Positions 9,815 through 27,554 of a DNA stretch of 36,494 bases are shown here, piece by piece. The notes beneath the pieces are model-generated. The model made no database searches. It was not told the DNA's origin and saw nothing but the letters and a program-made list of their open reading frames with translations. The stretch's first letter is position 1, and every line of letters starts with the position of its first letter. Source of the DNA: Thermodesulfovibrionales bacterium (lineage in GTDB: Bacteria; Nitrospirota; Thermodesulfovibrionia; Thermodesulfovibrionales; Dissulfurispiraceae); assembly GCA_026415415.1 (NCBI GenBank), contig JAOAHE010000014.1, forward strand, positions 1 through 36,494. The letters are read 5' to 3'. The position numbers were made by a program, and so were the translations under genes.

Positions 9815-10846
9815 TTAATTAGTGGCAAGAGCTACTCTTTTAAGCAAATCTAATCTATCCAGCATACTTCCACAACCCCTAACTACAGCTGTAAGAGGGT
9901 CATCTGGTAATACAACTGGCACCCCTGTATGTTCCTTAATTAAAATATCTAAGCCTTTTAACAAAGCACCACCACCTGCGAGAACTATTCCTCGGTCAAC
10001 AATATCAGCTCCAAGCTCAGGTGGCGTATTCTCTAAGGTAACCTTTATAGTATCAAGAATAATATTTACACTCTCCTGCAAAGCTTCTCTGATTTCTGAA
10101 TCTACTACCCTTATAGCCTTTGGGATACCAGAGATAAGATCTCGCCCTTTGACTTCCATAGAGGCTCCATTATTTACAGGATAAGCTGAGCCAATCTCTA
10201 TTTTGATCTTCTCTGCAGTTCTTTCGCCTATCATTAAGTTATATTTCCTTTTAATATAAGCCATTATAGCTTCATCCATCTTATCCCCCCCTACCCTAAC
10301 TGCCTTACTATATACAATACCATCTATAGATATAACAGCCACATCTGTCGTGCCACCACCTATATCTACTATCATATTTCCAGAAGGTTCACCTACGGGT
10401 AAACCAACACCTAATGCCGCGGCCATAGGTTCCTCAATAAGATATACCTCTCTGGCTCCAGATGCAGTAGCTGCATCCTTTACAGCCCTTTGTTCAACTT
10501 GAGTAATCCCAGAAGGAACCCCAATGATAACCCGTGGTGAGACAAAACTGCGTCTGTTGTGTGCTTTCTTTATGAAATATTTAAGCATCTCCTCGGTTGC
10601 ATCAAAATCTGCAATTACCCCGTCCTTCATAGGCCTAATACTGATAATATTAGAAGGAGTTTTACCTAACATCTCTTTTGCCTCAATCCCTACAGCTACT
10701 GGTTTTTTATTGTCTTTACGGATAACCACTACTGAAGGTTCATTACAGATGATGCCTTTTCCTTTTACATAAACAAGAGTATTAGCAGTACCAAGATCTA
10801 TAGCAAGATCATTAGAAAAAGTTCCTAATAATTTATGAATAAACAC
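9815..10846 (-). CDS. mreB: Rod shape-determining protein MreB (actin-like)
   Basis: MreB is the ATP-dependent actin homologue that orients lateral wall synthesis. The 343-residue length is normal. It shows the phosphate-1 motif [10 protein letters not shown] (about 17-26), IIGVPSG near 110, the phosphate-2 motif [11 protein letters not shown] (about 164-174), [13 protein letters not shown] near 205 and the adenosine motif VLAGGGALL near 290. The start is GTG at 10846, well supported by GGAGG five nt upstream. It is the first gene of the minus-strand cell-shape cluster. Confidence 0.98.
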
Positions 10847-11047: not shown

Positions 11048-12286
11048 TTACTTATGGCATTTATCACAATCAGAGGATGAAAAGGCACTTTTGCCATCAT
11101 GGCATTTTCCACAATATTTTCCTTTATACATCTCGTCCATTGTCATTCTTTTTGAAAATTTCTTCATTTGCCATATTTTATCATGGCAGTCGTTACAAGA
11201 AAAAGCTGAGGTGTGGAAATCATGGCTAAACTCAACCTGTCCAATACCCTTTGGTTTATACACTATAGAAGTTTTAGGAGCAGGTATCTCATCATGACAA
11301 TTTTTACAAGATGACCATGAAAAGGCTTTTTTACCATTATGGCAATCAAAGCATAACCTCCCTTTTATGTGATCATCATAAGTGAACTTAGTAGAACCTT
11401 TTTTCATTTGGAAAAGTTTATTATGGCAGTCCTTACAGGAAACAAGAGAGGCATGGGTATCATGACTAAATTTAACAGCTGAAGCACCTCTTCCAAATAA
11501 TATAGGAGTCTTAGGTATCATGCTTTCTTCTGTTAAATGGCAAGCTTTGCAGTTTTCATTAGCTGGTGCCTTAGAAGGACTAATTTTATCATGACAATCA
11601 AAGCAGGTTTGCATTTTAGTTTTATTAACTGGCTGACCACCATGTACCACCCCTAAATGACAATCCACACAATTTATTCCCTTTTCTTGATGCTTTGAAT
11701 GTTTTGGATCAATTGAGGCGCCTTGCCTTAATCCTTCAGTTAATATATCAGTCAACCCTTTTGAATGTCTAAACTCTGGATTCTTTACATTATCTACCAT
11801 ACGCATTGTAAATACAATCTTCATTAACCTTTCTTTTCTAATTTTTTGATTATAAGAGTCAGAATGACAAAATAGGCATGTCTCACTTGGTACTAACTTA
11901 GCAGCATACTTGGTGTCCTCAGTTGATCTTCTTAAAATCTCAAGCTTATATTCAGGCGTCTTAAAAAACTCTCCATACACATCCCGTAGCCCACCCATTT
12001 TTGCCTTCATATAACCAAAAAAGCCTATCTTCCCATGACAATCAAGACATTCAACACCAGCTTTTGCATGAGCTGTCATCTGCCATGTATAAACCTCCCC
12101 TAATAACCCAGCACGATTTTCAGGATGGCAATTTTTGCAAAACTTAGGTGAACTGGTATAATGTAATGCCTCTACACTTATAAAAGTATATATAGCTATT
12201 AATACAAATATAATAAAGATCGTTAATTTAAGATTGTTTTTAACAAAATTTTTAATTTTTTGTTGAATCTTTATAAGCTTTCCCAT
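11048..12286 (-). CDS. Membrane-anchored 12-heme c-type cytochrome (NapC/NirT-like head plus two triheme modules)
   Basis: The 412-residue protein has one N-terminal membrane helix (about 20-38) and twelve CxxCH heme motifs starting at C50, C80, C137, C206, C228, C246, C284, C312, C327, C364, C392 and C407. The helix plus first four motifs resembles the NapC/NirT/NrfH tetraheme quinol dehydrogenases. The C-terminal part is a tandem duplication of a triheme module resembling c7-type cytochromes. V-x-F-S-H-D-x-H starts at residues 271 and 351, and the three heme motifs repeat with an exact 80-residue period. It probably moves electrons from the quinone pool through the periplasm to an unidentified partner. 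No catalytic reductase subunit is adjacent; it stands alone between mreB and cmk. Confidence 0.88.
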   Translation of the reverse strand: MGKLIKIQQKIKNFVKNNLKLTIFIIFVLIAIYTFISVEALHYTSSPKFCKNCHPENRAGLLGEVYTWQMTAHAKAGVECLDCHGKIGFFGYMKAKMGGLRDVYGEFFKTPEYKLEILRRSTEDTKYAAKLVPSETCLFCHSDSYNQKIRKERLMKIVFTMRMVDNVKNPEFRHSKGLTDILTEGLRQGASIDPKHSKHQEKGINCVDCHLGVVHGGQPVNKTKMQTCFDCHDKISPSKAPANENCKACHLTEESMIPKTPILFGRGASAVKFSHDTHASLVSCKDCHNKLFQMKKGSTKFTYDDHIKGRLCFDCHNGKKAFSWSSCKNCHDEIPAPKTSIVYKPKGIGQVEFSHDFHTSAFSCNDCHDKIWQMKKFSKRMTMDEMYKGKYCGKCHDGKSAFSSSDCDKCHK

Positions 12287-24138: not shown

Positions 24139-24612
24139 TCAAAGTCTTTTAAAATCCCCACTTGTTCCGCCACTTTTCTCCAAAAGCATTATATTTGTTA
24201 TCAACATTTCTTTATCTATTGCTTTACACATGTCATAAATTGTAAGTGCTGCAACGCTAACAGCAGTAAGTGCCTCCATCTCCACACCTGTCTGACCTAC
24301 ACATTTAACCGTCGCTTCAATATCAATCTTCTTTTCCTCATCAACTATTTTAAAATCTAAGGAAACTGAAGACAGATTTAAGTTATGGCATAAAGGTATT
24401 AATTCTGATACCTTTTTTGCTGCCATTATTCCAGCTACTCTTGATACTGATAAAACATCTCCCTTTTTAATCGCACCATCCTTGATTGCCTTTAAGGTTT
24501 GCTCTTTCATGTATATAGAGGCTTTTGCGATTGCCCTTCTTGAGGATATAGGTTTATCCCCAATATCAACCATAATAGCATTACCCTTATCATCAATATG
24601 GGTCAGCTTCAT
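24139..24612 (-). CDS. moaC: Cyclic pyranopterin monophosphate synthase
   Basis: MoaC acts with the radical-SAM enzyme MoaA to make cyclic pyranopterin monophosphate, the first intermediate of molybdenum cofactor. The 157-residue length is standard. The start L-T-H-I-D-D-K-G-N-A-x-M-V-D, the I-P-L-C-H-N-L motif near 73-79, the G-V-E-M-E-A-L-T-A-V segment near 113-122 and the D-M-C-K-A-I-D-K lysine motif are all present. GGAGG precedes the ATG. It sits 17 nt after the sigma54 activator gene. A MobB-like gene occurs at 27782, but moaA and moeA are not in the window. Confidence 0.96.
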   Translation of the reverse strand: MKLTHIDDKGNAIMVDIGDKPISSRRAIAKASIYMKEQTLKAIKDGAIKKGDVLSVSRVAGIMAAKKVSELIPLCHNLNLSSVSLDFKIVDEEKKIDIEATVKCVGQTGVEMEALTAVSVAALTIYDMCKAIDKEMLITNIMLLEKSGGTSGDFKRL

Positions 24613-24629: not shown

Positions 24630-25982
24630 CTACAGTATATTATACTCTTTCATCAATTTCCAAAGAGTCACTCTACTTACACCAAGGTGCTTTGCTGAAA
24701 GTGTTCTGTTGCCATTAAATCTTGATAGAGCAGAAAGCACTTGTGCTCTATCTAATTTAAATTTTGTAGCAATAGGATAATTTTTATCAGGTCTGGTAAA
24801 AATATACTCTGGTAAATCAGTTATATCAATAGTTTCATCTCTTGTAGTCATAGCCGCATACTCAATAGCATTAATTAACTGTCTAACATTGCCAGGCCAA
24901 TAGTAAGCTTCTAAAGCCTCCATAGCGGCTGGGCTTATCCTTTTTATATTTTTATTATTTAGCAGATTAGCCCTTTCAAGGTAATGAGTCAATAACAATG
25001 GGATATCTTCTCTTCTTTCCCTTAAAGGTGGAACTTTTATAGGAATTACATTTAACCTATAGTATAAATCTTCTCTAAACTGGCCTGTTTGAATAAGCTG
25101 TAAGATGTTTTTATTTGTGGCTGTTATAAACCGAGTGTCAATAGGAATTGGTTTTATATCCCCTACTCTTTCAATTTCTCTTTCTTGAATGACACGCAAA
25201 ATTTTTATCTGCACCGAATAGGGCATATCCCCTATCTCATCCAAAAAAATACTACCTCTATTAGCTGCCTCAAACCTACCTACCCTATCTCTTATGGCTC
25301 CTGTAAAAGCACCTTTTACATGTCCAAAAAGTTCACTTTCCATCAAATATTCATTTAAAGCAGCACAATTAACTTTTATAAAAGGATGCTTACTGCGTTT
25401 GCTCAGTTTATGAATTGCATGAGCAACAAGCTCTTTGCCTGTTCCACTTTCTCCAAAAATTATAATGCTTGCATCACTTTGAGAGGCATTTTTTATCTGA
25501 TCAAATAATAATCTCATTGGTGAGCTACTACCAATCATCCCCATAAAACCATACTCATGTTTTAATTCACTTCTAAGCCTTTCAACTTCTACCTCTTTCA
25601 TGTGTAGATTAGTAATATCCGTCATTACCTCAACCGCACCAATAGGTTTCCCCTTTTTATCCTTTAATACAACAGCATTTTTTAGAATATGCACTTCCCT
25701 ACCATCTTTTGAGATAATTAAACACCTTTTATCACTAATACAACCAGAATCAAATAACTTACATTTCTTCTGTTTCTGACCAGATACATTAATAACACAT
25801 GAACTTGAATTTAAAATAGTACAAGATTTACCAAGTACTTCCTCAGTCTTAAACCCTGTGATCTTTTCAGCCGCTCTATTGAAAAAAAGGATGTTCCCTT
25901 CATTATTTACTACCATCAATCCTTCTGACATGGTCTCTAAAATGCTTTTCAAAAAATAACTATCAGTTAATAGTGATTTCAT
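24630..25982 (-). CDS. PAS-domain sigma54-dependent transcriptional activator
   Basis: The 450-residue protein joins an N-terminal PAS domain (about 10-120), a linker, an AAA+ domain (about 145-370) and a Fis-type HTH at the end (about 420-448). The AAA+ domain has Walker A G-E-S-G-T-G-K-E, the sigma54-contact loop G-A-F-T-G-A, Walker B I-F-L-D-E-I-G-D and W-P-G-N-V-R-Q-L. No receiver domain is present, so it senses its signal directly. The PAS region carries five cysteines (C54, C62, C74, C81, C87), suggesting a metal, heme or thiol-based sensor. It is divergent from the rhodanese selenoprotein gene; repeated half-sites overlap its start. It may control that gene and itself. Confidence 0.93.
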   Translation of the reverse strand: MKSLLTDSYFLKSILETMSEGLMVVNNEGNILFFNRAAEKITGFKTEEVLGKSCTILNSSSCVINVSGQKQKKCKLFDSGCISDKRCLIISKDGREVHILKNAVVLKDKKGKPIGAVEVMTDITNLHMKEVEVERLRSELKHEYGFMGMIGSSSPMRLLFDQIKNASQSDASIIIFGESGTGKELVAHAIHKLSKRSKHPFIKVNCAALNEYLMESELFGHVKGAFTGAIRDRVGRFEAANRGSIFLDEIGDMPYSVQIKILRVIQEREIERVGDIKPIPIDTRFITATNKNILQLIQTGQFREDLYYRLNVIPIKVPPLRERREDIPLLLTHYLERANLLNNKNIKRISPAAMEALEAYYWPGNVRQLINAIEYAAMTTRDETIDITDLPEYIFTRPDKNYPIATKFKLDRAQVLSALSRFNGNRTLSAKHLGVSRVTLWKLMKEYNIL

Positions 25983-26083: not shown

Positions 26084-26099
26084 TGGTATGTTTTTTGCT
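26084..26099 (+). promoter_or_regulatory. sigma54 (-24/-12) promoter of the rhodanese selenoprotein gene
   Basis: TGGTAT-N5-TTGCT fits the sigma54 consensus TGGCAC-N5-TTGCW, with the invariant GG (26085-26086) and GC (26097-26098) at exact spacing. Transcription should start near 26110, leaving a leader of about 30 nt with an AAAGGAG ribosome-binding site before the ATG at 26141. A sigma54 activator gene lies divergently beside it. Confidence 0.75.
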
Positions 26100-26140: not shown

Positions 26141-27490
26141 ATGAAAACTAGCCGAAATCTGCTGCTTTATTTGCTATGCCTAATCAGCTTGATTTTAGCA
26201 TCAAGTTCATTAGTATTGGCACAAACCCCAAAACCAAAGATCTTAAAACCCTGTAATCAGTGTCATGCCCCTGATGAGAAAATCCTCAGAGGGACACTTG
26301 GTGGAATCTCCCAAAAGGCTGAGACTTTTTCTGTGAATGCAGGAATAATTTGGACCGTGAAATTTGATGATAAAACAAAACTAACTGGTTGGCCACCACC
26401 TGTAGGAAAAATTCCTAAGGATAAAGAGATCGCTGTCAAATTTATTGAAAGAGATGGTGAAGTTTATGCAGAAAGTATATCAGTAAAACAACCAGCAAAA
26501 CTACCTGAAGACAAGGTAGTAAGTACTGAATTTGTTGCCGAAGCTGTTGAAAGAGGAGATGCCCTAATTATTGATTCAAGACCTGCAGTTAGATATTATG
26601 AAGGTGCTATCCCTACAGCTATCAATATTTATGATGCTGAGTTTGATAAGCATATTGACAAACTACCAAAAGACAAAAATAAACTTATAATCTTCTATTG
26701 TGCAGGACCTACTTGAAGATTGAGTCCATCCTCTGCCAGTAAGGCGGAGAAGTTAGGTTATAAAAATGTAAAGGTCTATTTAGATGGGATGCCAGCTTGG
26801 AGAAAAGCAGGCAAATTAACTATAGAGTGTGTTCAATGTCTTATAGAAAGAGTAAAACTGGACATACCCACTATAATAGTGGATTTAAGACCTGTCCAAG
26901 AGGCTAAAAAAGGTCATATTCCAGGTGCTGTATCAATACCCCTTACTGAAATTAGCACAGCTTATGAAAAATTTCCCAAAGACAAAAAAGCACCTATTGT
27001 TCTTTACTCATATGATACTAAATCTGCTGTCCAAGCTTTTGAGATAATCAGTGTTTGGGGTGGATTTACTAATATCACCGTTTTAGAAGGTGGTTTTGAA
27101 GAGTGGAAAAAAATAAATGGCAAGATAGCCACAGGCGATCTTCCAACAAAGATAGTTTGGGAACCTAAACCAAGACCTGGTGAGGTAAGTGTAGAAGAAT
27201 TCAAAGCTATAGTTGAGAAGAGACCTGCCGATAAGTTCATACTTGATGTAAGAGATACAGAAGAAGCCGAAAATGGCATGTTAATAGGTGCTATAAATAT
27301 ACCTACACAAGATATTCCAAAGAAATTGACTGAAATTCCAAAAGATAAAGAGATTATTGTCCATTGCCTTACGGGTGTTAGAGCAGAGCTTGCATTTCAT
27401 ACACTCAAAAATGCAGGGTATAAAACTCGCTTCTTAAATGCCATAATTAAAATTGACCCTACAGGCAGATACGAGATAACTAAAGAGTAA
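26141..27490 (+). CDS. Secreted triple-rhodanese selenoprotein with a c-type heme motif (in-frame UGA read as Sec192)
   Basis: The reading frame continues through one TGA (26714-26716) to the TAA at 27488-27490, giving 449 residues. The order is: signal peptide (about 1-27), one heme motif C38-N-Q-C-H42, a small beta region, and rhodanese domain 1 (about 113-225). Domain 2 (about 228-330) has Ser (S290) where the catalytic Cys belongs, and domain 3 (about 348-440) has an intact C409-L-T-G-V-R loop. Sec192 lies in the domain 1 active loop, five residues after C187 (C-A-G-P-T-U-R). Sequence on both sides of the UGA is smoothly rhodanese-like: L-S-P-S-S-A-x-K-A-E-x-L-G-Y follows directly. A SECIS-like hairpin follows the UGA. 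A C-V-Q-C pair (230-233) lies between domains 1 and 2. A periplasmic sulfur- or selenium-transfer or redox role is inferred. Confidence 0.85.
26714..26749 (+). promoter_or_regulatory. Bacterial SECIS element with its UGA codon
   Basis: The UGA at 26714-26716 is followed by a perfect 7-bp stem: CTCTGCC (26731-26737) pairs with GGCGGAG (26743-26749), including one G-T wobble, around the 5-nt loop AGTAA. A G is the second loop base (26739), and 22 nt separate it from the UGA. This agrees with the known bacterial SECIS rule of a small loop with G in its first two positions 16-37 nt after the UGA. Confidence 0.8.
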
Positions 27491-27512: not shown

Positions 27513-27554
27513 TTAAAAGAGTGCAATGTCCCTCCAGTCATTGCACTCTTTTAA
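27513..27554 (+). terminator. Strong intrinsic terminator after the rhodanese gene
   Basis: A perfect 16-bp stem, 27513-27528 (TTAAAAGAGTGCAATG) with 27539-27554 (CATTGCACTCTTTTAA), encloses a 10-nt loop. The T4 is part of the 3' arm. It begins 22 nt after the stop at 27490, and so closes a single-gene transcription unit. Confidence 0.9.

Follow-up and report, generated by a model that had tools for sequence, protein, structure and literature searches.

A three-domain rhodanese gene lies in the window, the whole stretch of 36,494 nucleotides analyzed here (Thermodesulfovibrionales bacterium, assembly GCA_026415415.1, contig JAOAHE010000014.1), and appears to encode a selenoprotein in which the in-frame UGA at codon 192 is decoded as selenocysteine (Sec) under the hairpin that follows it. 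From the comparative sequence evidence set out below, we place the probability of this reading at about 0.93, because the UGA is conserved among relatives, other relatives carry Cys in its place, and the SECIS element is kept in the UGA forms and not in the Cys forms, and also because the genome holds Sec machinery and other Sec genes. An earlier interpretation of the same DNA (hereafter, the sequence-only reading) had likewise argued for selenocysteine and not a nonsense mutation, and on this point it is supported by the same evidence.

Reading frame and domain organization

Gene calling with translation table 11 divides the gene into two open reading frames (26141-26716 and 26720-27490), which are in the same phase and, as the sequence-only reading had stated, have a single TGA alone between them (Table 1). 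With the TGA read through, the product yielded three matches to the Pfam Rhodanese profile (PF00581; 170 bits, E 1.8e-50); taken apart, its halves scored 39.5 and 124.3 bits. The best joined match extends over residues 130-222 and spans the UGA. This codon falls inside the active loop of the first rhodanese domain, C187-A-G-P-T-U192-R-L-S. Three TGAs with at least 70 open codons on either side occur in the whole window, the rhodanese TGA among them; by position, the other two are antisense to 9815-10846 and to the end of the moaC gene at 24139-24612.

Table 1. Coordinates of the rhodanese gene and associated features in the window
Feature	Coordinates	Strand	Basis
PAS / sigma-54 activator / Fis-HTH regulator gene, divergent	24630..25982	-	Pfam
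Sigma-54 type promoter TGGTATGTTTTTTGCT (-24/-12)	26084..26099	+	Only match in window, 0.02 expected
Three-domain rhodanese gene with Sec, TGA read through, 449 aa + TAA stop	26141..27490	+	
N-terminal signal peptide (predicted), about residues 1-27	26141..26221	+	Helix 4-20 in model; hydrophobic by eye
CXXCH (C38-N-Q-C41-H42), candidate c-type heme site	26252..26266	+	Motif counts in relatives
Cys187, first residue of domain 1 active loop	26699..26701	+	Conservation in relatives
TGA (Sec192)	26714..26716	+	U or Cys in relatives
Bacterial SECIS, stem CUCUGCC/GGCGGAG, loop AGUAA, conserved G at 26739	26731..26749	+	Comparative tests
Rhodanese domain 2, bounds approximate, loop LYSYDT without Cys	26834..27130	+	Pfam
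Rhodanese domain 3, bounds approximate, loop C409-L-T-G-V-R	27182..27448	+	C409 conservation

From the N-terminus, the product comprises a hydrophobic leader, one CXXCH (residues 38-42), a small beta-rich region and the three rhodanese domains. The description of the protein as a heme form is therefore right as to sequence, and a heme may be bound at this motif; no Pfam cytochrome profile matched the window protein. Rhodanese active loops consist of six residues, of which the catalytic Cys is the first. An AlphaFold2 model based on 40 aligned sequences, one of them the window's, reached a mean pLDDT of 90.8 and a pTM of 0.77. It places C187 after the strand 182-186 and U192 immediately ahead of the helix 194-204, so that Sec would occupy the last place of the six-residue loop. 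A Foldseek search with the whole model returned tandem rhodaneses at a whole-chain TM of about 0.2, from which nothing was learned on function.

Residue 192 across relatives

Two sets of loci were compared, which partly overlap and share genomes: an 81-row set made of the window and 80 named loci (the best 80 of 171), and a set of 30 loci from the matches listed. Two peptide patterns served to gather the named loci; one of them holds C187 and codes C at 192, and hence in the 81-row set neither the frequency of C187 nor the proportion of Sec to Cys is free of bias. Position 192 of the 81 rows was occupied by TGA in 51 and by Cys in 30, with nothing else; in the 30 loci, it was TGA in 25, Cys (TGC) in three, Gly in one and Arg in one. 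The sequence-only reading had asked whether homologues carry Cys or Sec at this site, and those that do account for 81 of 81 and 28 of 30 loci, respectively. Among the matches listed in 100 genomes (E up to 5e-53, the window's included), an in-frame TGA was present in 35 of 46. The two relatives with Gly or Arg instead of Sec (L043 and L048), the former of which also has Ser for the domain 3 Cys, look from their sequences like decaying copies.

C187 was found in 30/30 loci of the smaller set and, with one gap, in 80/81 of the larger (window and best 80 of 171), in which the Cys-x4-Sec/Cys pair that C187 forms within the loop is kept and position 195 is S in 73 rows and T in eight. The domain 3 residue C409 was present in 80 of the 81 rows, the remaining one reading X. 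Domain 2, whose loop in the window is without Cys, is probably inactive; a Cys stands at the corresponding position, 290, in 12 of the 81 rows.

The UGA forms come from Nitrospirota, Desulfobulbaceae/Desulfocapsaceae and SAR324 records and, more distantly, from Geobacteraceae, the named TGA carriers including Nitrospirota MAGs, Thermodesulfovibrio sp., Desulfopila, Desulfosediminicola flagellatus and a SAR324 MAG. Ten of the 30 Cys rows in the 81-row set are titled Geobacter or Geobacteraceae, and the others are spread across several phyla including Nitrospirota. A quick tree required at least nine Sec/Cys changes, six of them forced by starred branches. We also observed two Desulfopila genomes with two TGA-bearing triple-rhodanese genes each (L185 and L192 in G105, L186 and L193 in G106).

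These comparisons bear on the alternative that translation ends at the UGA, whether by nonsense mutation or at a true stop, leaving a short heme protein and a second half that is either dead or separate. Two open reading frames are indeed what table 11 gives, and termination at UGA is a known competitor of Sec insertion; a stop at this codon, however, would split a rhodanese domain, and the same UGA recurs across dozens of diverged loci in which both halves are conserved. We consider this alternative hardly credible.

A SECIS hairpin conserved in the UGA forms

The hairpin proposed for the window has a stem of 7 bp (26731-26737/26743-26749) beginning 17 nt downstream of the first UGA base. Its stability was unremarkable when compared with dinucleotide shuffles (z -1.56, with 14 of 200 shuffles folding as well), and for this reason a comparative test was made. 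Synonymous recoding of the same peptide gave a sharper result for the window, with z -3.15 and none of 200 sequences as stable. The synonymous resampling used each gene's own codon usage and covered the 80 distinct rows of the 81 (window and best 80 of 171). In the 50 Sec rows, 6.54 of 7 pairs were kept versus 4.50 expected, with a mean z of -2.05 and p up to 0.05 in 33/50. The 30 Cys rows kept 4.57 pairs versus 3.89 expected, their mean z being -0.16 and p up to 0.05 being reached in 6/30. The G of the hairpin loop followed the same division, as it was present in 49/50 Sec rows versus 7/30 Cys rows. The SECIS-like hairpin noted in the sequence-only reading is thus conserved in the UGA forms and hardly in the Cys forms.

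Covariation was assessed in 25 Sec rows, in which 93.7% of the cells pair and 11 cells are changed on both sides. None of 500 shuffles reached the paired share, the count of both-sided cells or the covariation score; three of the seven pairs in these rows had both-sided changes, a number that was not unusual, as 136 of the 500 shuffles were as high. The Geobacteraceae Sec forms (n=8) exhibit a hairpin in the same register with 6 or 7 of the 7 pairs and the loop GGUCU, as in the SECIS of E. coli fdhF.

Selenocysteine machinery and the missing selC

The genome harboring the window (G000) is assembled into 1.89 Mb over 118 contigs and is 92.6% complete; that of a member of the same genus (G001) is 80% complete. 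Searches of the former recovered selB, selA and selD at 389, 627 and 377 bits, each over its cut-off, using models which, together with that for tRNA-Sec, also match weakly in control genomes (over cut-off in 2, 1, 2 and 5 of 14 for selB, selA, selD and tRNA-Sec, respectively). Other Sec genes are found in this genome: selD has an in-frame UGA of its own (AGUASK), and a molybdoenzyme recovered with a reductase query carries Sec in CARLUHAP, presumably a formate-dehydrogenase-like motif. Of the four sel genes that the sequence-only reading had proposed to look for, selA, selB and selD were accordingly present, and selC was not found in this 92.6% complete assembly.

In the G000 and G001 assemblies, selC was not found with Rfam, with a 26-base pattern allowing up to three mismatches or with a custom model built from 20 tRNA-Sec genes with the UCA anticodon. 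A UCA tRNA-Sec was detected in 20 of the 24 genomes tested. The four without it were G000 and G001, both incomplete and with the TGA, and G004 and G005, whose triple rhodanese is without TGA; G017 has a copy without TGA, yet a UCA tRNA-Sec is present. A TGA copy of the triple rhodanese occurs in 21 of the 24 genomes, counting G003 with a broken copy bearing two TGAs; in 19 of the 21 it is accompanied by the UCA tRNA-Sec. We infer that the missing selC reflects an assembly gap. The neighbor genes of seven selC loci in relatives differ by eye, and no empty site could be named among them. An overlap of selC with selB is described for some Nitrospirae in the text available to us of PMC8124441; sought at the selB locus of the window's genome, such an overlap was not found.

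The same genome contains a selC*-like tRNA-Cys (L007:1501-1628, corresponding to G000:C58:9938-10065), with, by eye, an 8-bp acceptor, a GCA anticodon and U73. This gene is unusually long (128 nt) and is missed by ARAGORN, and a YeeE/YedE-like membrane protein (by eye) begins just downstream of it. The accessible part of PMC7609411 reports this kind of tRNA-Cys from Nitrospirae among others, as well as selC*/selB* clusters. As a candidate for selC itself, L007 was ruled out by its GCA anticodon and its discriminator U73. A candidate second SelB in the genome, a 191-bit TIGR00475 match on C96, was taken as EF-Tu from its 402-aa frame. Further tRNA-Sec-like genes with a GCA anticodon, 89-115 nt in length and with differing neighbor genes, were observed in relatives at L070, L073 and L076 (by ARAGORN) and at L075 and L077 (by eye); by eye, L075 and L077 have similar genes downstream, as do L070 and L076.

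It is conceivable, with this repertoire, that the UGA is read as Cys through the selC*-like tRNA-Cys of the window's genome, given that a tRNA-Sec-like gene with GCA and U73 is present, that canonical selC is absent from the assembly and that some relatives have Cys at site 192. The GCA anticodon, however, does not match UGA, SelA and the Sec-containing SelD are present and the SECIS is intact, the two assemblies from this genus fall short of completeness (92.6% and 80%), and 19 of the 21 TGA-bearing genomes among the 24 tested have the UCA tRNA-Sec. Decoding as Cys is on these grounds very unlikely, and Sec remains the reading that we adopt for codon 192.

Regulation and gene neighborhood

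The rhodanese gene is preceded by a sigma-54 type promoter and by a divergent gene for a PAS-containing activator (Table 1). Flank lengths vary among the loci of the 81-row set (window and best 80 of 171), and all neighbor counts are lower bounds. A homolog of the activator was found near the rhodanese gene in at least 16 of the 81 loci, the window included, at a median distance of 195 bases. Upstream sigma-54-like sites, matching the consensus at 11 or more of 12 positions, occurred in 6/16 loci that have the regulator, the window among them, and in 3/63 without it, two loci being too short upstream; single-base shuffles gave expectations of 0.06 and 0.22, respectively. From this pattern, sigma-54 and the divergent PAS activator probably switch on expression of the rhodanese gene.

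Beyond the regulator lies moaC, and downstream of the rhodanese gene there are a MobB-like gene, a cytochrome c assembly gene and a glutamyl-tRNA reductase-like gene (by eye). A terminator scan detected none on the + strand after the rhodanese gene; by eye, a hairpin with a T tail is located at about 27516-27553. Elsewhere in the window, 11048-12286 on the - strand encodes a multiheme cytochrome with a NapC/NirT-like N-terminal region and cytochrome c7 repeats.

Among relatives (window and best 80 of 171), a PsrA-like molybdopterin oxidoreductase is near the gene in at least 17 of the 81 loci (12 Cys and five Sec forms), the FeS protein of a PsrA-type cluster in at least 11 (seven Cys, four Sec) and NrfD in at least nine, Cys forms only. 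The sole PsrA-like protein tested, that of L128, had as its best match the polysulfide/thiosulfate reductase 2vpw (E 4.6e-205) and scored 512 bits against the PhsA model, under the cut-off of 694. No neighbor of the PsrA, FeS or NrfD type stands beside the gene in the window; the nearest homolog of the L128-type reductase in the window's genome is 34% identical, and no homolog was found in the congener genome.

Relationship to known rhodanese selenoproteins

The sequence-only reading referred to reports of Sec-containing rhodanese-related proteins from metagenomic surveys, and the available text of a 2026 review lists five rhodanese-like selenoprotein forms, giving form 1 as PF00581, UxxS and WP_010941598.1 and crediting it to Zhang and Gladyshev 2005 (PMC13188914). 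So far as form 1 is described there, the window protein resembles it, having a PF00581 domain with Sec followed by x-x-S in the UxxS motif (here U192-R-L-S195). The Sec triple rhodaneses of Geobacteraceae, which bear the loop CGGPTUPFS or CGGITUGMS, are lipoprotein-like by eye and have no CXXCH, are probably form 1 as matched by motif description; WP_010941598.1 is presumably a Geobacter sulfurreducens protein. The window protein differs from these Geobacteraceae forms by its N-terminal CXXCH and by being without their lipobox-like cysteine (by eye).

Among these more distant Sec forms, L214-L221, from the family of G101 (a Geobacter MAG), are lipoprotein-like triple rhodaneses with FWCGG[PI]TU and no CXXCH, and in G126 and G160 a Sec form of this type coexists with a Cys homolog. 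L222 and L223 are short single-domain rhodaneses with a Cx4U loop, FYCRG[IV]GU, and a GGUC-loop hairpin in shifted register; they are perhaps, on these motifs, a second Sec subfamily.

No NCBIfam model scored above its cut-off for the window protein. The closest likenesses include TsoB (NF045694, UxxxxU, rhodanese/DsbD fusion-like), whose profile positions 33-153 align with residues 114-224 at 61.4 bits, far under the family cut-off of 805. From its UxxxxU motif, TsoB probably has Sec at both of the loop positions that C187 and U192 occupy here; unlike TsoB, the window protein has Cys at the first loop position, three rhodanese domains and a heme motif. The source cited for TsoB in the available text of PMC13188914 is Haft and Tolstoy 2025. 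NF041203 LYCAU (form 3, CxU) is likewise a Sec-using rhodanese; this model of 126 positions scored 78.3 bits, below its cut-off of 115, with the best stretch at 117-223, and the spacing in the window protein is Cx4U, not CxU. BH2092 (PDB 3nhv, 3o3w) shares the loop spacing with Cys at both places (YCWGPAC) but has no Sec and a single rhodanese domain. By description only, the window protein can also be likened to ExtH (GSU2940) of Geobacter sulfurreducens, a 49-kDa rhodanese lipoprotein in a cluster with cytochromes, which belongs to a different gene cluster from that of the window and is not called a selenoprotein in the accessible text (PMC5877670, PMC6148476). Our literature search, largely outside subscription titles, turned up no earlier account of a triple rhodanese that combines Sec and a heme motif. 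Rhodanese selenoproteins were already predicted, then, and the heme-motif version seems to be new, in agreement with the earlier impression that this form is little described.

Possible function

The selenoprotein is probably located in the periplasm, judging from its sequence, and its probable role would be periplasmic sulfane-sulfur transfer or reduction. Selenenylsulfide chemistry at Cys187/Sec192 would be plausible. We tentatively suggest, at somewhat less than an even chance, that Cys187 would take up sulfane sulfur from polysulfide or thiosulfate as a persulfide, which Sec192, five residues on, would attack, releasing sulfide and forming a selenenylsulfide that would then be reset with electrons supplied by the c-heme or by a partner. 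Domain 3 would provide a second, ordinary sulfurtransferase site, domain 2 would be structural, and the sulfane-sulfur chemistry could feed or replace a polysulfide/thiosulfate reductase. Against the overall reading stand the Gly or Arg at 192 in two of the 30 loci from the matches listed, the 12 Cys forms among the 17 PsrA-like loci (window and best 80 of 171), the confinement of NrfD to Cys forms and the lack of such a neighbor in the window.

The heme motif itself was found in 29/30 loci from the matches listed and in 66 of the 81 rows (window and best 80 of 171). It is missing in the other 15, among which L097 and L130 start inside the gene; five of the Sec forms in this set have their N-terminus present but no CXXCH. 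Heme is therefore not essential to the Sec chemistry, and a heme step cannot be general. We regard as doubtful the stronger version in which the protein would be a heme-wired single-chain sulfur reductase, with Sec attacking the Cys persulfide and the built-in c-type heme reducing the selenenylsulfide.

The protein may instead be an ordinary sulfur carrier, binding sulfane sulfur and passing it to a reductase, with no reduction on the protein and with Sec merely as a better nucleophile or leaving group; this concerns function, not decoding. Rhodaneses such as Sud or PhsE presumably hand sulfane sulfur to a reductase in this way. The PsrA/FeS/NrfD-type genes near relatives, the conventional third domain with C409 and the sufficiency of Cys in 30 of the 81 rows fit such a carrier. 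Cys187, however, is already a carrier site, a second chalcogen is kept five residues off in 81/81 rows (window and best 80 of 171) and lost in 2/30 loci of the other set, and CXXCH in 66/81 suggests redox work. A carrier is thus a possibility that we hold at clearly less than even.

Handling of metalloids or metals (selenite, tellurite, mercury), as ExtH may do, appears improbable. In the available text, ExtH belongs to a Geobacter ext cluster that also includes a porin and ExtKL, a cytochrome selenoprotein, and loss of extI impairs selenite/tellurite reduction (PMC5877670, PMC6148476). A DUF3373-kind barrel is near the gene in at least 11 of the 81 loci (window and best 80 of 171), 10 of them Cys forms, which would suit this role; yet no ext-type cluster was recognized by eye in 17 neighborhoods, the ExtN/ExtO models were matched by one of nine neighbor proteins, below cut-off, and the reductase tested (L128) is of the sulfur type.

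Together, these observations describe a Sec family that is widespread and whose genes are split by gene calling with table 11. The exchange of Sec and Cys at one loop position offers a natural experiment for learning how selenium contributes to the chemistry of rhodaneses, and the Cys-Sec pair of the rhodanese loop, in a protein with a heme motif, would be testable as a sulfur-reducing center. If the doubtful heme-wired mechanism were true, a transferase fold would have been turned into a respiratory-type reductase with no molybdenum needed.
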